From Lactobacillus sp. CBA3606 (GTDB taxonomy: Bacteria; Bacillota; Bacilli; Lactobacillales; Lactobacillaceae): a DNA stretch of 64,000 nt. The notes below the pieces were generated by a model. That model had not been told where the DNA came from. It ran no database searches and saw only the letters and a list, made by a program, of their open reading frames with translations. The stretch covers positions 1,054,001 through 1,118,000 of the forward strand of contig NZ_CP027194.1 in assembly GCF_002970935.1 (NCBI RefSeq), read 5' to 3'. Shown here one piece after another: positions 33,916 to 44,197 of this stretch (its first letter is position 1; each line of letters begins with the position of its first letter). The position numbers and the translations under genes are program-made.

Positions 33916-36119
33916 GGTAAGGCTCCTTCCCATAACCGCTTAGCAAAACTAACGGGTAAATCAAACGTCTGATCAGCGGTGGCAACGACTAACCGATCCG
34001 CTGTCGTGGTCTGCCCTAAATAAGTGGCATAAGTTCCCATTAAATTGTCGAATTCAGCCCGTTTATCAGCGGCTACTGAAATCACAAACCGGGATTGCGT
34101 TTCTGCAAAGAAGTGGGCGGCAGGTAGGGTACTCGTCAGTTGCACGCCTAACTCATTATCGAAGCAAGCCTCCGCAATGGCAGTAATTAGCCCCCCTTCG
34201 GAAACGTCATGGGCACTAGCAACCAATCCTTTTTGAATGGCCCGTAACATCAAGCGTTGATTCTGGTGTTCTGTAACCAAGTCAAAATCAAAGAGGTCAC
34301 CCGCAATCTTACCGGTTAACATTTTTTGTAACTCGCTCCCATTAAAATCAGCCCCGGTTTGACCTAAAACATAAACCGCATCACCAGCTTGCTTAAAAGC
34401 CTGTGTCGTAATATCACGTTGGTGCTTAATCAACCCAACCATCCCAATCATGGGCGTTGGGTAGATAGCAGCGCCATTCGATTCATTATTTAACGAGACA
34501 TTACCAGAAATCACTGGCGTATTAAACAACTGACAAGCTCGGGCAATCCCCAGCGCCGATTCATCTAAATCATAAAATTGTTCGGGTTTTGTTGGATCAC
34601 CGTAATTCAAACAATCCGTAATCCCCAGCGGCTGACCACCAGAAGCCACAATATTGCGGGCAGCTTCAGCAACGGCAATTTCGCCCCCAACACGTGGATT
34701 CAAATACAGGTAACGCCCATTCACATCGGTCGTGACAGCTAAAGCTTTATCCGTATGCCGAATGCGAATAACGCCCGCATCCGACCCGGGTTTAACCACT
34801 GTATTCGTTTGAACTTGTGAATCATATGTTTCATAAATCGCTTTTTTGGAGGCAATTGTGGGTTGTTGTAGCAGCTTCTTTAAGGCGCCGGTAGCGTCGA
34901 CAATTCGTGGCATAAATTGATGATGGCTAGCCTGACTGAGACGACTTGGGCGTTTTTTATCCCGTTGATAAACTGGTGCTTGCGTCGCCAAGGCATCTAC
35001 CGGAACATCCGCCACTAATTGACCATGATGGAATAGTTGATACTGATGGCCTGCGGTTACATGACCAATCGTAACGGCCGCCAAACCATATTTTTCAAAA
35101 ACGCGATAGATCTCCGCTTCAGCACCGGCTTTGACACACAATAGCATTCGTTCTTGCGATTCAGACAACATCAACTCATATGGTGTCATCTCACTTTCAC
35201 GTTGTGGGACTAAGTCCAGATTCAATTCCAAACCACTGCCCGCTTTTGACGCCATTTCGGCCGATGACGAAACCAGACCTGCAGCGCCCATATCTTGAAT
35301 CCCGATTAGGACCGCAGCATGGTCATGGATAACCTCTAGACAAGCATCCATTAACAGCTTTTCCATAAATGGATCGCCAACTTGAACGGCCGACCGTTGT
35401 GTTGCTTGCGCATCGTTAAATTCAGCGGAGGCAAAAGATGCCCCATTAATGCCATCACGACCCGTTTTAGCACCCACGTAAATCACACTATTGCCAATAC
35501 CAGTAGCTTGTCCCTTTTGAATATCTGCTTGATTCAAAAGACCAACACACATCGCATTCACCAATGGATTCTTTTGGTAACATGCGTCAAAAGCAGTGTC
35601 ACCACCAATTGTGGGAATACCAATACAATTACCATAGCCACCGATTCCGGCAACGACTTGTGAAATCAAATATTTAGTGTGTGCATCAGTTGGTTCCCCA
35701 AACCGTAAACTATCCAGTAAAGCAATTGGTTTGGCGCCCATCGAGAAGATATCGCGAATAATACCACCAACTCCGGTCGCCGCACCCTCATAAGGCTCAA
35801 CAGCGGACGGATGATTATGACTTTCGGCTTTAAAAACGACCGCCTGACCATCACCAATATCAATAATGCCAGCACCTTCGCCGGGTCCTTCTAACACTTG
35901 TTCACCTTGGGTCCAAAACTTTTTTAAGACCGGTTTGGAATTCTTATAGGAACAGTGTTCACTCCACATTCCAGAGAATAAGCCGGCTTCAGTATAATTG
36001 GGTAACCGGCCCAACACTTCTTTACTAATGAGCTGATATTCCGCATCGGTAAGGCCCCAATCCCGATAAGCTTGCGTATCACGCAAGGCTTCCGGCGTCA
36101 ATTCAGTCGTTTTAAGCAT
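33900..36119 (-). CDS. purL: FGAM synthase subunit II (small-type PurL)
   Basis: Synthesises FGAM with PurQ and PurS. At 739 residues it is the small Gram-positive type lacking the fused amidotransferase. Motifs include [18 protein letters not shown] near the N-terminus, [43 protein letters not shown] and a second PurM-like half ([19 protein letters not shown]). The ATG at 36119 follows GGAGG by six bases and overlaps purQ by eight bases. Confidence 0.97.
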
Positions 36120-36786
36120 GTTGTGCCTCCTGATAATGTTCAAGTAATGACTTAAAGAGTCCTAATCCATCCGTCGAACCAAGTAAGGCTTCCACGGCCC
36201 GTTCAGGATGTGGCATCAAGCCCAAAACATTGCCTTGCCGATTCATGATTCCCGCAATATTAGCCACACTCCCATTCGGGTTATCTGCATATTCAAAAAC
36301 AATCTGATGGTGCGCTCGTAACGACGCTAACGTCGCCGCATCACAATAATAATTACCCTCACCGTGTGCAATTGGTAATTGAATCGTAGTGGTGTCATAA
36401 GCCGTTGTAAATTGTGTATCGGGATTGCGAATGATGAGCTCACTCGTTCGACAAATGAACTTAGCCGACCGATTCGCCTGCAAGACTCCAGGCAATAAGC
36501 CCGCTTCCGTCAAAATCTGAAACCCATTGCAAACGCCTAAAACCGGTTTGCCGGCCGCTGCTAGCTTTTTTACAGCCTGCATCACTGGCGCAAACCGTGC
36601 AATTGCACCGCCACGTAAGTAATCACCATAAGAAAAGCCCCCGGGTAAGACGACCGCGTCATAAGCGGTTAAATCCGTCGTTGTCGCTGCTACCAGCTCC
36701 GCTTCCGCCGACAAACTATCCCGTAAAGCATTAACCATATCCTGATCACAATTGGATCCCGGAAAAACTGGTACGGCAAATTTCAT
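36112..36786 (-). CDS. purQ: FGAM synthase glutaminase subunit
   Basis: Class I amidotransferase feeding ammonia to PurL. It has 224 residues: [15 protein letters not shown] at the start, [16 protein letters not shown], the nucleophile in [20 protein letters not shown] and the histidine in [11 protein letters not shown]. Two bases separate it from purS. Confidence 0.97.
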
Positions 36787-36788
36787 AA

Positions 36789-37043
36789 CTACTCAGCCTC
36801 CATCTCGGTGATTTCATAACGATAAGTCTCCATATTAACGTTCGCTAATAACTGATCACACATCGCATCCACTTCGGTTTCAACTGGTCGGTGCCCCGCC
36901 TGTAACTTGATTTCAAAATATTTTCCTAAGGCCACTTCAGTCACATTAGTATAACCAAGACGATGGAGCGCATCGTTAATTGCTTCACCCTTAGGATCAA
37001 GAATTGACGCTTTATAGGTCACATAGACTTTAACTAAGTACAT
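36789..37043 (-). CDS. purS: FGAM synthase PurS subunit
   Basis: Small scaffold joining PurQ and PurL. The 84 residues ([27 protein letters not shown] and [11 protein letters not shown]) match the dimeric PurS fold. Its ATG overlaps the purC stop by one base (TAATG). Confidence 0.96.
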
Positions 37044-37777
37044 TAAGCTTGGCTCCCTTCAACAGCGGTTAGGCGTTGTAACACTTCTTGATACACCGTG
37101 GTTAAATCACCGGTATTCTTGCGAAAAACATCTTTATCTAAGGAAGCCTGTGTCTGCTGATCGACTAATCGACAGCTGTCTGGTGAGATTTCATCCGCCA
37201 ACAAAACTTTACCTTGATCAGTAAGACCAAATTCAAGTTTAAAATCAACGAGTTGAATCCCCATAGCCTTAAAAATAGCCTGCAAACGCGTATTAACCAA
37301 CAACGCTTGCCGCTTCATTTCAGCGACAACTGCCGCACTAGCGACATCTAAAGCCGCGACTTGTGACTCATTAATAAAGGGATCATCTAACTGATCACTT
37401 TTATAGAAGAACTCTAAAACGGGCGTTGCAAATTTAGTAAGATGGGGCACCGCAAATTTACGTTCAAAACTACCAGATGCGGCATTGCGAACGACTGTTT
37501 CCAAAGGAATCATTTGGACGCGCCGGACTAATTGCACCCGGTCTGATAATTGTTCAATAAAATGATTCTCAATACCATGCTGCTTCAAATCCGTAAAAAT
37601 CAAGCTAGCAATCCGATTATTCAACAGCCCTTTTTCAGTCACAGCTACTTTCCGTTTGCCATTTAAAGCAGTCGCCTGATCCAAGTATTCCACCCATAAG
37701 ATTTCTGGATCATTGGTCGCATACATTTCTTTCGCTTTACCGGTATATAACAACGCACCTTTTACAAGTTCTGCCAT
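37043..37777 (-). CDS. purC: SAICAR synthetase
   Basis: Couples CAIR with aspartate using ATP. At 244 residues it shows LLYTGKAKEMYAT at the N-terminus, VRNAASGSFERKF and the signature LVDFKLEFGLTDQGKVLLADEISPDSCRL. Three bases separate it from purK. Confidence 0.97.
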   Translation of the reverse strand: MAELVKGALLYTGKAKEMYATNDPEILWVEYLDQATALNGKRKVAVTEKGLLNNRIASLIFTDLKQHGIENHFIEQLSDRVQLVRRVQMIPLETVVRNAASGSFERKFAVPHLTKFATPVLEFFYKSDQLDDPFINESQVAALDVASAAVVAEMKRQALLVNTRLQAIFKAMGIQLVDFKLEFGLTDQGKVLLADEISPDSCRLVDQQTQASLDKDVFRKNTGDLTTVYQEVLQRLTAVEGSQA

Positions 37778-37780
37778 AAT

Positions 37781-38911
37781 TTATTGTGCTCCCTTCAATA
37801 GTTGCAACGACGCTAACGCTTGATCAATATCATTATTTAAGACGGTAATATGGCCCAGTTTGCGTTGTGGGCGAATAACCGCCTTCCCATAATCGTGAAA
37901 ATGCCATTCCGGATGGGCCATTAAGTTCTCACGCGCAATCGTTAAGTCTGCCCCTAATAAGTTGCGCATAACGGCCGCCTGGGTTTGCTGAATAGCCGGA
38001 ATAGGCAACCCACAAATACTACGAATATGTGCTTCAAATTGTGAAATATTACAAGCTTCAATCGTGTAATGTCCAGAATTATGCGGGCGTGGCGCTAATT
38101 CATTCACCAGTAAGGTGTCATCGGGCAAGACAAAGAATTCGATACCTAAAACACCACGTAGCTGCAAGGCTTGTGCAATTGAAACCGCAATTTTACGGGC
38201 ACTAGCATGCACCTTTTCACCCACATTAGCGGGCGCAATCGTCGTATGCAAAATATGGTGTTGATGGCGGTTTTCAACTAAAGGAAAAGTCGTTACAACC
38301 CCGGCTGCACTGCGCGTGACCATCATCGAAACCTCTAATCGAAAGACTTGCCGGGCTTCTAGAATACAAGGCTGTTTTAATAACGCTAAGCCGGCGGGCG
38401 TTAAATCAGCCTGATTTAAATCAACTTGACCATGACCATCATAACCACCTGTCACAGTCTTCAAAATAGCGGGCATCCCGACCCGTTGACGCGCATAAGT
38501 CAACGTTTTTTGATCCGTTACGGGTGCAAAAGGGGTCACAGGAATACCGTGATCATGTAAGAATTGTTTTTCATTTAACCGATTCCCAGTAATGTGTAGG
38601 AGTTGTGTCCCTTGTGGTAAGGCGGCATACTGTTGGGCAGCTTTTAAAGCCGTTTCATCAACATTTTCAAATTCATAAGTTAAAACAGCACTACGTTTAG
38701 CTAAAGCTAACAAAGCAGTCTGATCATCATAGGCGGCCGTGATTTGAAAATCAGCCACTTGGGCAGCTGGCGCTTGCGGCGTCGGATCTAATACGCCGAC
38801 ATGATAGCCCATTGCTTTAGCACTCAATGCCATCATCTGACCAAGCTGGCCGCCGCCAATGATGCCGATTGTTGCTGGCGGTAAAATTGGTTGTTTAGAA
38901 TTGCTGTTCAC
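37781..38911 (-). CDS. purK: N5-CAIR synthetase
   Basis: ATP-grasp enzyme carboxylating AIR with bicarbonate. The 376-residue protein has [35 protein letters not shown] and the ATP-grasp end [19 protein letters not shown]. The start lies 17 bases inside purE. The stretch before the Rossmann motif (about 14 residues) is a little longer than usual but has no better start inside. Confidence 0.96.
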
Positions 38912-39377
38912 TAGCTTCTGCCTCCTGACGTTGTCGCTGGCGAAAGGCGATAACTGCTTGTTGCACTGTTGGTGTCGTTAAGCCTAGAATCTGGGCCGCC
39001 ATTAGTGCAGCATTTTTCGCACCGGCTTCGCCAATCGCCATCGTGGCGACCGGGACCCCCGCCGGCATTTGCACAATTGACAGTAACGAGTCCACGCCAT
39101 TCAAAGCGCGCGTCTTAATCGGCACCCCAATCACTGGCAAAACGGTATTAGCCGCGAGCATGCCCGGTAAGTGAGCGGCACCACCCGCGCCCGCAATAAT
39201 GACCTGTAACCCGCGATCAGCAGCCTGTTCACCATAAGTTTGCAGTGTTGCCGGCATCCGATGTGCTGAAATAATATGTCGTTCGTAGGAAATCCCCAAC
39301 GCTGTTAACTGATTAGCCGTCAACTGCATGACCGGCCAATCCGAAATCGACCCCATTACTAAACCAACCTTCGCCAT
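38895..39377 (-). CDS. purE: N5-CAIR mutase
   Basis: Rearranges N5-CAIR to CAIR. The 160 residues are typical for class I Pur[49 protein letters not shown] and [15 protein letters not shown]. First gene of the 11-gene operon; an AAGAGGGA site precedes the ATG. The promoter has TTGACA and TAAACT boxes and an upstream PurBox. Confidence 0.98.
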
Positions 39378-39407
39378 TTCAATCCCTCTTTCTTTGTTTT
39401 CACCATT

Positions 39408-39436
39408 AGTTTAGCAACTCAGTGGCCAACTGTCAA
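39408..39436 (-). promoter_or_regulatory. Promoter of the pur operon
   Basis: On the minus strand TTGACA (39436-39431), 17-base spacer, TAAACT (39413-39408); expected start of transcription near 39401. Confidence 0.9.
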
Positions 39437-39471
39437 CGAATTTCTTAACTTTATCAATAAATAGTCGTTTT

Positions 39472-39484
39472 AATGTTCGTGTTT
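39472..39484 (-). promoter_or_regulatory. PurBox, likely PurR activator site
   Basis: Minus strand reads AAACACGAACATT, matching 11 of 13 positions of the lactococcal PurBox AWWWCCGAACWWT. Its centre is about 77 bases upstream of the expected transcription start, close to the -76 position known for lactococcal PurR activation. A second CGAAC site (GGCCGAACAT) lies at 39522-39535. Confidence 0.75.
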
Positions 39485-39492
39485 TAAAGATA

Positions 39493-39528
39493 AACATCTT
39501 AGAAATATTAATATATTTCTAAGATGTT
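39493..39528. repeat. 36-bp perfect palindrome upstream of the pur promoter
   Basis: Arms of 16 bases beginning AACATCTTAGAAATAT are perfectly complementary around a TAAT centre. It lies between the two PurBox-like CGAAC sites and its outer end overlaps one of them. There is no T run, so it is not a standard terminator. Role unknown. Confidence 0.85.
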
Positions 39529-39607
39529 CGGCCTTTAACTGCTTGATTAAGCGGGTTTGCTCCCCTTTAAGCAGCCTCGGTCATCATAATATTTATATTA
39601 AACAATC

Positions 39608-39645
39608 AAAAAACGAGCCTGGGATGCACCCAAGCTCGTTTTTTT
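39608..39645. terminator. Terminator of the FMN-reductase pair
   Basis: Stem ACGAGC-TGGG / CCCA-GCTCGT with T6 on the minus strand and T7 on the plus strand. It lies 40 bases after the stop of the tail-bearing FMN reductase gene. Confidence 0.88.
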
Positions 39646-39684
39646 ACCTTTTAATTTTAATTGCAAGCGGACGTGCTGTTTCAC

Positions 39685-40956
39685 TTACTCATTCGCTGAA
39701 GCACCTGAAATACTGTCCACTGCTGGTGTCGTTGGCGCTGGTTTTGGTTCTGAATCAGCGGAAGCTCCCGTCACACTATCTGGTTCAGGTGTCGCCGCTT
39801 TAGCTGAAGCACCGGTGACGGCATCGGCCTTGGCCGTTGGATCCTTGGCTAAGACTTGCCCGGTATGTTCGAGATAATACTTAACAATTGGCATTAAATC
39901 AAGCACATATTCATTAATTCCTTGATAGTCACCTTGCTGATCGTGCATCGCCTGATAATAATGCATAATGTATTTTTCGGGACCATTGCCGGGCACTGGC
40001 AACTTGAATAACTTAGTCTGCCCAGTCCGTAACATATGAATCACTTGTTGAACATGGGGAATAGCACGTTTAGGATGACAATCGGCCATCGGATTCCCCG
40101 CCTGGGCTGGTGTCCGGGCAGCCAACATATCGGCCGCATCCGCATTGTGATTATAGTAAATGAATTGGTTATTCGCATCCGCAAATGTCAGTTCCATCGG
40201 CATGGAATTCAAGAAGTAATTCAGTTGATCAACGGTTAAAACACCACGATCTAACTTCACATAATCTTGACCCTCAGCCGCGCCCGTCTTTTTAGCAGCT
40301 TGTTCAACCCAATCAGCAGCGTGCATATCCACCCCATCAATCGTGGTCGCCACATGCCCCGTCGCATTCAAGTCTTCTGACTGCCAGTCATCAGCGGCAG
40401 CTTTGGCATTCATTTGATTAATCACACCGACAAACGTCACGAACTTAGTTAGGGTTGTTTTCAAGAACCCGACTGTCTTAGGATCTTTTAAGTTATTTTG
40501 ATCATCAAATGCCGTCTTAACTTCACCTAACAAAAATTCATTGCCAGGCATGACCGTTGCGTCAACCCCTGGTGCTTCTAAGATTTGTCGTAGATTGAGT
40601 TGTGCTCGTGATGACCCTTGATCATAGTATGATGCGCCGACAATCATTACTGGCTTGCCAGACAAAGGATGAATCTTAAACGAAAGCCATTCAATCACAC
40701 TTTTCAAGCTCGCCGTAATCGTATGATTATGTTCTGGTGTGGCGATAATCACGCCATCAGCCTGTCTGATTTTTCGACTTAAATATTGAATCGCTTCACT
40801 ATTTGTTTGGTCATCGCTCTGATTAAACATCGGAATGTCTTGAATATCTAACAACTCTAAATCAATCGTATCACTAAAATGATTGGCCATAAATTTTAAA
40901 AGTGTTCGATTATAAGATTGGTCGGCTACCGAACCCGCAATTCCAACTAACTTCAT
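39685..40956 (-). CDS. NADPH-dependent FMN reductase with PAS-like domain and tail of three flavinylation motifs
   Basis: The 423-residue protein has three parts. Residues about 1-190 form a flavodoxin-like FMN reductase ([64 protein letters not shown]). Residues about 250-365 resemble the PAS_10/DUF438 C-terminal domain ([20 protein letters not shown], then [22 protein letters not shown]). The Ala/Pro-rich tail holds DAVTGAS (378-384), DSVTGAS (393-399) and DSISGAS (414-420), each fitting the ApbE recognition motif Dxx(S/T)GA(S/T), where the last residue takes FMN. No signal peptide is seen. It forms an operon with the paralogue upstream (15-base gap). AGGAG lies eight bases before the ATG. 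Substrate unknown. Confidence 0.85.
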
Positions 40957-40971
40957 TTAAAAGACTCCTAT

Positions 40972-41580
40972 CTATAAATTATCCCAATCAAAATCACGAA
41001 CTTCTTGCTGGTTTGCCGCATTGGCATGCTTTAATTGGGTCGTGATTGTCACAAAAGTTTGAAAATCAGCAAATAATCCGGCTAACTTAGCTAACTTTTG
41101 TTGATCAATTAATTGCCCCTGGTCATCAAAGGCTTGTAGTGAATGCCCCAATAAAAATTCTGAACTGGGCATAATACGTGCTCGTAACTCAGGTGAATCC
41201 AGAATTTGTCGCAAGTGGGCTTGGGCTCTGGAAGTCCCTAATGACCCGTAAGAGGCCCCAATAATCATGACTGGTTTGTCGACAAAAGGATGGATATGAT
41301 AGGATAACCATTCCAAAGCGTTCATTAAAACGGCCGGCGCCGCATGATCATATTCAGGCGTACTAATGATAACGCCATCGGCTTGATCAATCTGGGCAGC
41401 AATGGTCTTAACTGCTGCCGGGACCTGTTTATCCGCCGGTTTGTTGAACATCGGTAATGCCTTAATCTCAACCAAGTCGATCTGCGCTTGGTCTGCAAAA
41501 TGAGTCTGCATAAACTGTAATAGCTGGCGATTAGTCGATTGATCCGAATTCGTGCCAGCGATTGCGATAAATTTTTGCAT
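40972..41580 (-). CDS. NADPH-dependent FMN reductase family protein
   Basis: Flavodoxin-like oxidoreductase of 202 residues: KFIAIAGTNSDQSTNRQLLQFM is the FMN phosphate-binding start, with ADGVIISTPEYDHAAPAVLMNALEWLSY and IIGASYGSLGTSRAQAHLRQIL further on. It is clearly paralogous to the first domain of the next gene, from which it differs by lacking the PAS-like domain and the flavinylation tail. The pair may work together, one as flavin reductase and one as tailed acceptor. AAGGAG precedes the ATG. Reported relatives reduce quinones, azo dyes or chromate; which applies here is unknown. Confidence 0.88.
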   Translation of the reverse strand: MQKFIAIAGTNSDQSTNRQLLQFMQTHFADQAQIDLVEIKALPMFNKPADKQVPAAVKTIAAQIDQADGVIISTPEYDHAAPAVLMNALEWLSYHIHPFVDKPVMIIGASYGSLGTSRAQAHLRQILDSPELRARIMPSSEFLLGHSLQAFDDQGQLIDQQKLAKLAGLFADFQTFVTITTQLKHANAANQQEVRDFDWDNL

Positions 41581-41620
41581 TTAATTCAGCTCCTTATATA
41601 ATTTAGGAATCGTTGTCTAT

Positions 41621-41649
41621 ATTGTAAACGATTTCACAATTTAAATCAA
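41621..41649 (-). promoter_or_regulatory. Promoter of the FMN-reductase operon
   Basis: On the minus strand TTGATT (41649-41644), 17-base spacer, TACAAT (41626-41621), 41 bases upstream of the ATG. Confidence 0.78.
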
Positions 41650-41669
41650 AGTGATATTTTGCTAATTCT

Positions 41670-41698
41670 AAAAAAGGGGCTTCTCCACGGTAGCCCCC
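41670..41698 (-). terminator. Terminator of the tyrosine phosphatase gene
   Basis: On the minus strand GGGGCT, loop, AGCCCC, then T6. It lies about 100 bases after the phosphatase stop and just upstream of the FMN-reductase promoter. Confidence 0.75.
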
Positions 41699-41799
41699 AC
41701 CTAATCAGTCAATATTCAGTTGCTGGTGCTGATTAATCACCAATCGGCTCAAGTATCGTGACTTGGACTAGTTAAATAACGCCGTCGTGCATTTCCGAC

Positions 41800-42591
41800 T
41801 TAATTTAAATAGATTTTTCTTAAATCTGACACTTCTTGTTTGGTTAAGTTCAATTCAGTCCGTAAATAATGTTCAATATTACCCGATTGCCGTTTGATTT
41901 CTGCTAATGCCGTATCTAAATAATCTTCATTCACAGACCAGAGCGCCTTAATGCTGGCAATTGTTGCTGCCGAAGCGCCTTGATTGGTGGCCGCTTGTAC
42001 AGCACTCGTAATGCGATCCGCCGAAGCCGTATTAGTTAATAAATAATCCTGCCGAATCGTTGCTTGGTCCACACCCAGGGCACTTAACAAATAAACTGCC
42101 CCCATCCCGGTACGATCCTTACCAGCTGTACAATGGAATAATAAAACATCGTCGGGCTGGTCATTGGCTAATAAACTATCAAAGAAACGCCGATATTCAT
42201 ATTTCGCATGCGCTTCATTGGCAATCATCCGATAGACCTTCAGCATGTGCCGATAGCCACTATCCGGATGAGTTTCCAAATCAGCAGTCATTTTATCCGT
42301 GCCATCCGAATTTTTAGTTTCATCTACATTAAAAACTGGCGCATACTGATACTTGGCCTGACCAGGGACCCGGTCGGGACTATCCAAAACTTCTTTCGGT
42401 GACCGAAAATCAATATCATAACGGACACCATATTGATCTAAGTAAGCTAAGTCAGTTTGCGTCAAGCTATCTAGGCCACCGCTTCGCAGTAATTTTTGCC
42501 ACTTCACGGTATGCCCATCTTTAGTCTGATAACCGCCTAATTCTCGGAAATTAAATCCTTGCTGTATTGGTAATACCCGCTGTTTTTCCAT
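41800..42591 (-). CDS. Tyrosine phosphatase (Y_phosphatase3 family)
   Basis: Predicted protein tyrosine or dual-specificity phosphatase, 263 residues. The active-site loop HCTAGKDRTGMGAVYLL carries the CX5R nucleophile near residue 154; upstream are NFRELGGYQTKDG and the conserved DIDFRSPKE, both typical of this bacterial family (LpdA/PtpB-like). It may act on phosphotyrosine, phosphoserine or phosphoinositides; the target is unknown. The ATG at 42591 lies eight bases after AGGTGG; a GTG four codons earlier overlaps that site. A cre-like sequence lies upstream. Confidence 0.88.
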   Translation of the reverse strand: MEKQRVLPIQQGFNFRELGGYQTKDGHTVKWQKLLRSGGLDSLTQTDLAYLDQYGVRYDIDFRSPKEVLDSPDRVPGQAKYQYAPVFNVDETKNSDGTDKMTADLETHPDSGYRHMLKVYRMIANEAHAKYEYRRFFDSLLANDQPDDVLLFHCTAGKDRTGMGAVYLLSALGVDQATIRQDYLLTNTASADRITSAVQAATNQGASAATIASIKALWSVNEDYLDTALAEIKRQSGNIEHYLRTELNLTKQEVSDLRKIYLN

Positions 42592-42638
42592 TGCACAATC
42601 CACCTATTCTATAAGTTATCACGCTTCTAGTTTAACAT

Positions 42639-42653
42639 TGCTAAGCGCTTTCG
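42639..42653. promoter_or_regulatory. Possible CcpA cre site
   Basis: The minus strand reads CGAAAGCGCTTAGC, matching the core AAAGCGCTT of the cre consensus TGAAARCGYTTNCA but with imperfect ends. It lies between the divergent phosphatase and carbonic anhydrase genes. Weak evidence. Confidence 0.35.
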
Positions 42654-42737
42654 CCGAGATAATGTTCATCATTAATTGACAAAGTTGCCGACGGTGGGAA
42701 AATAAGACTAAGCAACTAAAATACGGAGGTTTTTCAC

Positions 42738-43370
42738 ATGACATCAAATATCCAACCAACCAGCTGGCAACCGGTCGCTGGTAACCATCAATCACCACTC
42801 GATTTAGTCACGACCAATGCGGTCAGCTCACAGCTTTCAGCAATTAGTTGGCGCCGCTTGTATCAAGCCAAATCGCGGCTAGCCGATACAACCACCCTGA
42901 AAGTTGCTGGCAGCGGTGCAGCCTATTTAAACGACCGCGATTTTGCTTTTCAACAATTACATTTTCATATTCCAGCTGAACATTTAATCGATGGTCAAGC
43001 TGCACCAATTGAATGGCATCTCGTTCATCAAAGCGCCACTGGTCAGTTGGCCGTTGTTGCCATCTTTGGCCGGCTTGGCAAACCCAATGCCAGCTTTCAA
43101 GCCCTGTTAGATCAAGCCACGACAACTGGCGATGCTGACTTTGCCACCCCAATTGATTTAACTGAATTATTACCTGATACTGGCACCGTCTATCATTATC
43201 TAGGCTCATTAACAACGCCGCCATTCACCGAAACCGTTGAATGGTATGTCTGTAGCGATGCTGTGATGTTGGGCGTCGACCAATTAGCCGCCTACCAAGC
43301 ACAATTTGCCACTAACCAACGACCCGTCCAACCCTTGAACGAGCGACCAATCATTGCCGAACGATTTTAA
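42738..43370 (+). CDS. Alpha-type carbonic anhydrase, cytosolic
   Basis: Zinc enzyme that interconverts carbon dioxide and bicarbonate. At 210 residues it has the family motifs HQSPLDL near residue 17, LHFHIPAEH giving zinc ligands H75 and H77, EWHLVH giving H94, and YLGSLTTPPFTETVEWYV near the end. Bacterial alpha enzymes are usually exported; this one has no signal peptide. A bicarbonate supply fits the nearby carbamoyl-phosphate synthase and PurK, both bicarbonate users. ACGGAGG precedes the ATG. Monocistronic or with the hydrolase 18 bases downstream. Confidence 0.92.
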   Translation: MTSNIQPTSWQPVAGNHQSPLDLVTTNAVSSQLSAISWRRLYQAKSRLADTTTLKVAGSGAAYLNDRDFAFQQLHFHIPAEHLIDGQAAPIEWHLVHQSATGQLAVVAIFGRLGKPNASFQALLDQATTTGDADFATPIDLTELLPDTGTVYHYLGSLTTPPFTETVEWYVCSDAVMLGVDQLAAYQAQFATNQRPVQPLNERPIIAERF

Positions 43371-43387
43371 ATAAATGAGGTGTGTTT

Positions 43388-44197
43388 ATGCCCAAAAAAG
43401 TTAAATGGGGTTTAATTATTTGTGGTGTGTTTCTATTATCCATTATTGGGCTTGGACTGGCTACACAGTTGCATACTGATAAGACGAGTCACGTTATCAC
43501 TGATCAACGCCGACCCTTAATCATGGTGGGCGGCAGTAACAGCACCAAGACCGACTTTAAGTCATTAACCATGGCCCTCAACGCCCAACATCCGCACCCA
43601 ACCATTATGGTGACAGTTGATCGGCAACAGCACATTTCAGCGACGGCAACCCGCGTTGAAAACACCAAAATTGATGATACTTTAATCGTCATTTATTTTG
43701 AAAACAGTGCTGATACCAATGCAAACATCATCGTCCAAACTCAGGGCCTGGTCAAAGCCATGCGGTACTTAGCCGATCATTATCACGTCAAAACGGCAAA
43801 TGCCCTCGGTTACTCTAACGGTGGCTTAATTCTCAGTCGCTACGTTGCTGGCACTACTGCCAGTCAAACGGTCCCGCTTCACGACCTCATGTTGCTGGGA
43901 ACCCCCTTCTTGGGCACAGACGCCAAACAACCGGATCGCACGCTATTCGCGCCATTATTGACCCATAAAAAACGCTTTAAAACTTTACATGCGGTCATTA
44001 ATATTGCTGGTGATACCGGTAACGGTGACGATCAGGTCGTCCCACTCAGTAGCGTGACGGCGGGTGGACAGCTCTTTATGAACGAAGCTAAGCGTTACAC
44101 TGCCATGACCATCACCAAAAAAGAAATTAGTCACACGAATTTGATTCAAGATCATTATTTGGCTCGGCTGGTGCGCCAAAATATCTTAAACCAATAA
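43388..44197 (+). CDS. DUF915-type alpha/beta hydrolase, membrane-anchored
   Basis: The 269-residue protein has an N-terminal signal anchor (WGLIICGVFLLSIIGLGLA, about 7-25) and an alpha/beta hydrolase domain outside the membrane. The serine nucleophile is in ALGYSNGGLILSRYV; a late aspartate in NGDDQVVPLSS and a histidine in KKEISHTNLI complete a likely triad. It matches the DUF915 cell-surface lipase/esterase-like family common in lactobacilli. Substrate unknown. I chose the ATG at 43388, seven bases after GAGG, over the GTG two codons earlier. Confidence 0.85.
   Translation: MPKKVKWGLIICGVFLLSIIGLGLATQLHTDKTSHVITDQRRPLIMVGGSNSTKTDFKSLTMALNAQHPHPTIMVTVDRQQHISATATRVENTKIDDTLIVIYFENSADTNANIIVQTQGLVKAMRYLADHYHVKTANALGYSNGGLILSRYVAGTTASQTVPLHDLMLLGTPFLGTDAKQPDRTLFAPLLTHKKRFKTLHAVINIAGDTGNGDDQVVPLSSVTAGGQLFMNEAKRYTAMTITKKEISHTNLIQDHYLARLVRQNILNQ

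Follow-up and report, generated by a model that had tools for sequence, protein, structure and literature searches.

A Conserved Multi-Motif Tail Makes a PAS-Fused FMN Reductase of Lactobacillus sp. CBA3606 a Probable Target of ApbE Flavinylation

The Locus

The window, that is, the whole stretch of 64,000 nucleotides analysed from Lactobacillus sp. CBA3606, carries a two-gene unit (Table 1) in which a tail-less FMN_red paralogue stops 15 bp 5' of a gene on the same strand that encodes an FMN_red domain, a PAS domain and a C-terminal tail (hereafter the tailed gene). The first-pass annotation had described the product of the latter as a cytosolic FMN reductase fused to a PAS-like domain with three Dxx(S/T)GAS copies at its end. 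The domain order agrees with Pfam (FMN_red followed by PAS_10), no signal peptide is visible, and the three motifs were recovered at the same residues by translation. PDB sequence matches were YieF and chromate reductases, with 2qkp for the PAS part, and the 50 best Foldseek matches listed returned the two expected folds and were uninformative on the PAS ligand. AlphaFold2, run with a 35-sequence alignment, gave a mean pLDDT of 82 for the whole protein and block means of 29 to 37 in residues 378-423, a tail that is predicted to be disordered.

Table 1: Features of the two-gene unit (positions are those of the window).
Feature	Position	Strand	Evidence
FMN_red + PAS_10 + flavinylation-motif tail protein, 423 aa	39685..40956	(-)	ORF, Pfam, PDB sequence matches, relatives
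FMN_red domain, residues 1-145	40522..40956	(-)	Pfam PF03358, E 3.8e-37; Foldseek 1rtt, 3svl, FerB
PAS_10 domain, residues 245-354	39895..40224	(-)	Pfam PF13596, E 8e-29; Foldseek top match 2qkp
Predicted disordered Ala/Pro-rich tail, residues 378-423 (46 residues)	39688..39825	(-)	pLDDT <50 throughout
Motif 1 DAVTGAS, residues 378-384	39805..39825	(-)	Translation
Motif 2 DSVTGAS, residues 393-399	39760..39780	(-)	Translation
Motif 3 DSISGAS, residues 414-420	39697..39717	(-)	Translation
Tail-less FMN_red paralogue of 202 aa, upstream gene of the two	40972..41580	(-)	ORF, Pfam
Terminator-like hairpin 3' of the two-gene unit	39608..39644	(-)	16 pairs then T run; consensus match only

No FMN_bind domain was matched in the tailed protein by Pfam at E up to 1, and no signal peptide was seen by inspection, the N-terminus being the first strand of the FMN_red fold. 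The enzyme seems to be cytosolic. Assignment to the secreted multi-flavinylated FMN_bind class was ruled out, as neither the FMN_bind domain nor the secretion signal was found. An RNA element near the tailed gene was rejected, with no Rfam match at the gathering threshold within 36000-44000, and terminator-like sites as a class (3 seen against 2.3 in shuffles) were not above chance in the region.

The tailed protein is probably the orthologue of the L. plantarum FRed-PAS fusion Lp_2732, and the tail-less paralogue is probably its heterodimer partner. The pairing of the two genes, which had been read as pointing to a two-component system, was confirmed, and the main text of PMC4500961 describes the FMN_red subunits of L. 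johnsonii (FRedA and FRedB) as a heterodimer.

Conservation of the Tail Motifs

We defined the strict motif as Dxx[ST]GA[ST] and a relaxed core as D...[GSA]A[ST]. A chance origin of the motifs was rejected by shuffled tails: of 100,000 shuffles of the last 58 residues of the tailed protein, 367 produced a single strict motif and none produced more. Recent DNA duplication or tandem repetition was rejected as their source as well. The three copies differ in codon use and the direct DNA repeats inside the tail amount to one 14-nt pair (93%), so that the likeness at the protein level is no remnant of a recent duplication.

Of 301 family genomes searched with the tailed protein, 147 had a match at E 1e-40 or below. 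We read the PAS proteins encoded in 110 loci (L004-L033 and L064-L143) and collected 92 distinct tails, the window protein included, which hold 233 strict motifs (shuffle mean 0.365, maximum 3 in 200 rounds) and 310 relaxed ones (shuffle 10.75, maximum 21). At least two relaxed motifs were found in 90 of the 92 tails, against a mean of 0.71 and a maximum of 4 of 92 in shuffles; the exceptions are L125, a degraded copy entered as zero motifs, and L134, which has one. At least one strict motif is present in 78 of the 92 and up to six in a single tail (none in 14 tails, one in 11, two in 14, three in 29, four in 15, five in 7 and six in 2). The starts of successive strict motifs lie 11 to 83 residues apart; the spacing is not conserved, which the first-pass annotation had named as a refutation of its reading and which to the letter counts as one, although the motifs themselves are kept. 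Among 35 aligned orthologues A383, S384 and A419 are invariant and D378, D414 and S420 nearly so; conservation inside the tail is confined to the D, A and S of the first and third motifs. Judged from these sequences, the number and spacing of the motifs are free among relatives and the core is kept.

The same holds beyond the family. In 395 genomes searched at the level of the order, matches at E 1e-20 or better were obtained in 234, many of them full-length. Tails from 20 loci chosen in the other families were read as well, and 19 have at least two relaxed motifs within their last 130 residues; the exception, L170, has one there and seven further N-terminal. All of the best 80 of at least 563 confirmed named relatives have two or more relaxed motifs and 66 of these 80 have at least one strict motif. 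These 80 come from Lactiplantibacillus, Furfurilactobacillus, Lentilactobacillus, Levilactobacillus, Companilactobacillus, Pediococcus, Ligilactobacillus, Enterococcus, Tetragenococcus, Vagococcus, Trichococcus, Amphibacillus, Oceanobacillus and others.

Tails that lack a strict motif (14 of 92 in the family, 4 of 20 in other families of the order) have Ser or Ala replacing Gly or Ser/Thr, and several adjoin apbE (for example L079, L092, L093, L096, L100, L119, L169 and L174). L021 and L109 are further relatives with substituted motifs and no strict one. Either ApbE tolerates the change or such sites are dead; its specificity may possibly have shifted toward substituted motifs in these relatives. 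In the account of PMC12052999, changing the motif Gly to Ala or Ala to Val leaves about 50% flavinylation, Ser is used less well than Thr as the flavinylated residue, and Asp to Ala has minor effects only, in one substrate, so that D need not be what ApbE selects. The text of PMC10722498 calls the motif Asp essential. The conservation of the Asp may overstate its importance to ApbE. The multi-motif tail is a real feature and, judged by its conservation, a functional one. The reading of the motifs as ApbE-type sites is supported, and FMN is very probably attached to the tail of the window protein.

The Motifs and the PAS Unit

A strict motif was found in none of 162 tail-less FMN_red ORFs and in 149 of 181 tailed ORFs (overlapping samples); a single one of the 162 has a relaxed motif within its last 60 residues. 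An equivalent of the tail-less FMN_red gene is present in 79 of the 80 named loci (the best 80 of at least 563). By this comparison it is the PAS unit, rather than the reductase, that the motifs accompany.

PAS-tail genes also occur with no FMN_red gene found alongside, in 14 family loci, and apbE adjoins such a gene in four of these (L126, L127, L129 and L132). In L131, apbE, two FMN_red genes and a PAS-tail gene follow one another as four separate adjoining genes. In genus g38, which we infer to resemble Lactobacillus sensu stricto, the genus of L. johnsonii, a stand-alone PAS-tail protein gave a long match in 32 of 41 genomes. The 30 of its loci that were retrieved all hold relaxed motifs (three in 27, two in 3), and in 23 of the 30 apbE loci retrieved from g38 the start, by reading, has no signal-like or lipobox sequence. 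A long arrangement is a protein of 894 aa from another family (L170:3971-6655, plus strand), with three PAS_10 stretches by Pfam and eight D..[ST][GSA]A[ST] sites in the order FMN_red, motifs, PAS, motifs, PAS, motifs, PAS, motif. A further long form of 713 aa (L171:4001-6142, plus strand) has six motif-like sites.

Linkage and Co-Occurrence of apbE

An apbE gene in the same genome was one check that the first-pass annotation had proposed, and the PF02424 profile found three, all away from the tailed gene; the absence of apbE from the window genome was thereby rejected. One of them encodes a lipoprotein and adjoins the gene of a two-motif lipoprotein. The other two have no signal-like start and their products are apparently cytosolic.

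Elsewhere apbE is often a neighbour. With the locus taken as about 4 kb on each side of the tailed gene, less at contig ends, 29 of the 80 family loci contain apbE, as do 17 of the 20 from other families and 47 of the 80 named ones. These counts are neither independent nor complete, since the three samples share species and some loci are cut by contig ends. No linked apbE was seen in the window genus, probably Lactiplantibacillus, in L141-L143 and L175-L187 (12 named Lactiplantibacillus and one MAG). By a simple hydrophobic-start score with a limit of 1.6, 92 of 93 linked ApbE proteins have no signal-like start; the exception is the ApbE of L132 (1.74), and the lipoprotein ApbE of the window genome, used as a control, scored 2.69. 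The commonest gene order is apbE, tail-less FMN_red, FMN_red-PAS-tail, with apbE lying 3' of the pair in the Bacillus-type loci L216, L230, L236, L239 and L243 and in L120.

Among the 301 family genomes, a strong apbE (E <1e-50) was found in 90 of the 91 with a listed PAS-tail gene and in 71 of the 210 others. Adding eight further g38 genomes with a PAS-tail gene changed these counts to 98 of 99 and 63 of 202. The one PAS-tail genome without a strong apbE, G261, is 76% complete. Twenty genomes with only weak PF02424 matches (E 1e-4 to 1e-15) were scored as apbE-free; such matches often come two per genome (e.g. G021, G058 and G081), strong apbE being absent there. We take the co-occurrence as supportive only, because the counts ignore kinship and rest on the PAS-tail genes listed, an incomplete set.

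In a FastTree phylogeny the solitary apbE C1:1279691 of the window genome, the product of which is apparently cytosolic, pairs with the operon apbE of L118 (support 0.988), and the clade of the two has 28 members (0.968), among them an apbE that is linked with the gene of an FMN_red-FAD reductase. The second window apbE of this kind, C1:1580995, falls in a clade of 60 members (1.0) that also holds operon apbE genes. As both lie in clades with operon apbE, the tree singles out no partner for the tailed gene.

Neighbouring Genes, Plasmids, and Related Fusions

A helix-turn-helix protein of about 290 aa, putatively Rgg-like by sequence, is encoded in 33 of 180 loci (including L156-L159, L162, L168, L169, L172, L174, L207, L214 and L218-L221) and in 25 of them directly 5' of apbE in the same direction. 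Named Companilactobacillus loci have a divergent FAD-reductase-like gene next to apbE in 13 of 14 cases. The one scanned by Pfam, in L087, has FAD_binding_2 and FMN_bind domains and a strict motif of its own, and this neighbourhood suggests an enoate- or fumarate-type reductase as the acceptor in Companilactobacillus; in L. johnsonii the acceptor is O2.

On the L. lactis plasmid pGdh442, apbE and FMN_red stand together with the gene of a 403-residue FMN_red-PAS-tail protein that has two DATSGAS motifs. A Crp/Fnr-type regulator is annotated upstream of this operon (L255:3043-3714, plus strand), hinting at oxygen or redox control. A plasmid search with the tailed protein matched 232 records, 95 of them from Enterococcus; the listed E. 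faecium plasmids cover the whole protein, with the best piece at about 57% identity, and plasmids of Lacticaseibacillus paracasei and L. lactis likewise carry the tailed unit. These copies place the unit on mobile DNA. In 60 plasmid rows spread over the matches, the reductase part alone matched outside Enterococcus, Lactococcus and Lacticaseibacillus.

Three other fusions with one strict motif each were seen. Two are in the window genome: FMN_bind, FAD_binding_2 and FMN_red with apbE near (L144:5625-7928, minus strand), and FMN_red, FAD_binding_2 and FMN_bind (L146:7371-9725, minus strand). The third, in G211, has the order FMN_red, FMN_bind, FAD_binding_2 and also has apbE near (L149:4263-6680, minus strand).

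Possible Roles of the Tail

We favour, at a probability of roughly 0.55, a tail-flavinylated heterodimer of the FRed type in which the tail FMNs are a tethered, swinging flavin substrate. A heterodimeric NADH:flavin reductase would have the tailed protein as its PAS-fused subunit, and a cytosolic ApbE would put FMN on Ser384, Ser399 and Ser420. Electrons would pass from NADH to the FMN bound in the interface of the FMN_red dimer and from this flavin to the tail-tethered FMN groups, which would serve as a built-in flavin substrate at high local concentration, on swinging arms. Once reduced, the arms might pass electrons on to O2 or to a partner reductase, or might dock at the PAS domain; the latter could act as a cradle or a sensor. 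A tethered substrate would explain the floppy tail, the free number of sites, their location in the PAS unit and the existence of detachable PAS-tail units. Motif conservation, the motif-free partner, the linkage and co-occurrence of apbE, the reductase-free PAS-tail genes with apbE and the pGdh442 operon were counted for it; the lack of linked apbE in the window genus loci examined, the tails without a strict motif in both samples (14/92 and 4/20), the unconserved spacing and an ApbE tree that names no partner were counted against it. The tail is not required for NADH oxidase activity, as FRedA/B showed it with free FMN and no flavinylated PAS present; LjPAS, the PAS protein of L. johnsonii, slowed complex formation (main text of PMC4500961).

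The tail flavin could instead be a redox sensor, its state reporting NADH or O2 to the PAS domain and so controlling how the reductase pair assembles or how active it is. Sensing is a common function of PAS domains, and the frequency of the stand-alone PAS-tail gene in g38 would suit this role. The main text of PMC4500961 reports that LjPAS slows FRedA/B assembly and that its gene is repressed without oxygen, but the LjPAS tested was probably unmodified, so the effect may be that of the apo form. Several motifs are kept, whereas a sensor needs one flavin, and we regard this explanation as unlikely, at something like one chance in four.

We find it slightly less probable still, and doubtful, that the tail simply anchors the cofactor, with the covalent FMN folding back into the FMN_red active site where it cannot be lost and the extra motifs being spare. 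The Lactococcus tail sites were modelled next to the flavin site in PMC11334425, where flavinylation was also confirmed. However, at least two core motifs are present in 90 of 92 chains against one site per FMN_red domain, the PAS-tail proteins of g38 keep two or three relaxed motifs with no FMN_red domain to fold back into, and the three-PAS protein has motif-like sites after FMN_red and after every PAS. Loss of flavin would also be less of a problem for an enzyme that seems to be cytosolic.

A multi-flavin electron wire, with the tail FMNs as fixed stepping stones for transfer over a long distance, had been the proposal of the first-pass annotation and is not supported. Several sites do lie 15-21 residues apart, and such a wire was proposed for secreted multi-flavinylated proteins in the text of PMC8238504, but the window tail is predicted to be disordered, the number of strict sites (0-6) and their spacing vary freely, and no membrane electron carrier gene was seen among the commonest neighbours inspected, the labels of which come mostly from sequence inspection. 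A wire of fixed spacing was rejected outright, since motif spacing varies among relatives, and the general form is very improbable. A disordered tail with variable site number and spacing fits mobile arms or a tethered substrate pool better than a fixed chain, and the swinging flavin substrate is favoured over the wire. That the motifs are not flavinylated at all, and that the tail is a low-complexity repeat with some other role (acidic spacer, degradation tag), we consider hardly credible: it is Ala/Pro/Glu-rich, varies in length and lacks the Gly in some copies, but the D, A, S core is kept amid free variation of the linker, the three copies differ in codons, apbE is linked, and two Lactococcus FMN_red proteins offer direct proof of flavinylation (PMC11334425).

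The tethered flavin substrate may belong to something broader. We propose, at slightly worse than even odds, a widespread cytosolic class of multi-flavinylated proteins without FMN_bind, made of a PAS domain and a disordered linker that carries two to six ApbE-loaded FMNs as the tethered substrate of a heterodimeric NADH:FMN reductase, and occurring fused, stand-alone (LjPAS-like) or as PAS-linker beads; FRedA/B-LjPAS would then be ApbE-dependent. If this is true, the H2O2-forming FRedA/B-LjPAS system has been studied so far without its covalent flavins. The data suggest that LjPAS, studied as a regulator of H2O2 production in a probiotic Lactobacillus, was assayed unmodified, and its role can be re-tested.

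Already known are the ApbE-modified FMN_red tails in Lactococcus (PMC11334425) and the FRed-PAS fusion Lp_2732 (PMC4500961), both as given in the main texts. What is new is the join of the ApbE and FRed literatures, the conserved multi-site tail, the order-wide operon and the PAS unit, together with the PAS-plus-tail proteins without reductase and the three-PAS protein with eight motif-like sites. No paper joining ApbE flavinylation with the FRedA/FRedB-LjPAS line was found among the open-access papers listed in the literature searches.

Comparison with Known Systems

HcrA and HcrB of L. plantarum (hydroxycinnamate reductase) are, in the description of PMC10295242, also two proteins with an FMN_red-type (COG0431) domain, HcrB being catalytic, but their output domain is FAD_binding_2. 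In the scanned FMN_red-FAD_binding_2-FMN_bind fusions, a folded FMN_bind domain accompanies the motif, in place of a free tail. SaFMN3 and CbFMN4 carry several covalent FMNs per chain, as is proposed for the window tail, but these flavins sit in FMN-binding domains of extracellular proteins (as described in PMC10339131 and PMC8238504).

Closer are the FMN_red proteins of Huang et al. 2024, which the main text of PMC11334425 describes as apbE-linked, mainly from Firmicutes, and bearing a C-terminal extension with one to two motifs. Two of them, L. lactis WP_021723379.1 and L. taiwanensis WP_205872264.1, were flavinylated at the tail, with the Ser/Thr required and the sites modelled beside the FMN_red flavin site, so that the tail of the window protein is not the unusual kind of ApbE target that it had been taken for. 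The FMN_red domain, the motif-bearing extension (predicted disordered in the window protein) and the occurrence in Firmicutes are alike, and apbE linkage is seen in many relatives of the window protein, though not in the loci examined of the window genus; the difference is in number, one to two sites against three in the window protein and up to six in relatives. The word PAS is absent from the main text of PMC11334425. Nevertheless the L. lactis protein of Huang et al. probably belongs to the FMN_red-PAS-tail family, because pGdh442 carries an operon of this type with two sites. A conserved, apparently cytosolic protein with at least two sites per chain calls for a reason other than the one that Huang et al. 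gave.

The closest system in layout is the one of Valladares et al. 2015 (PMC4500961), in which, according to the main text, the L. johnsonii FRedA/FRedB heterodimer is an NADH oxidase that forms H2O2 and LjPAS is a separate 28-kDa protein that slows its assembly in vitro. Besides binding FMN, FRedA/B reduces it as a substrate (Km about 20 uM), and its oxidase activity was obtained with free FMN. LjPAS was produced in E. coli together with FRedA, for which reason it was probably unmodified as assayed, and the terms 'ApbE', 'covalent', 'flavinylat' and 'FMN transferase' are absent from the main text of the paper. Common to both systems are two FMN_red subunits and a PAS_10-type protein, separate or fused; the PAS-FRed fusion in other species was noted there as well, with Lp_2732 and EF1227. 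The tandem FMN_red genes of the window (40972-41580 and 39685-40956) and the fused PAS_10 domain agree with the FRedA/FRedB-LjPAS layout.
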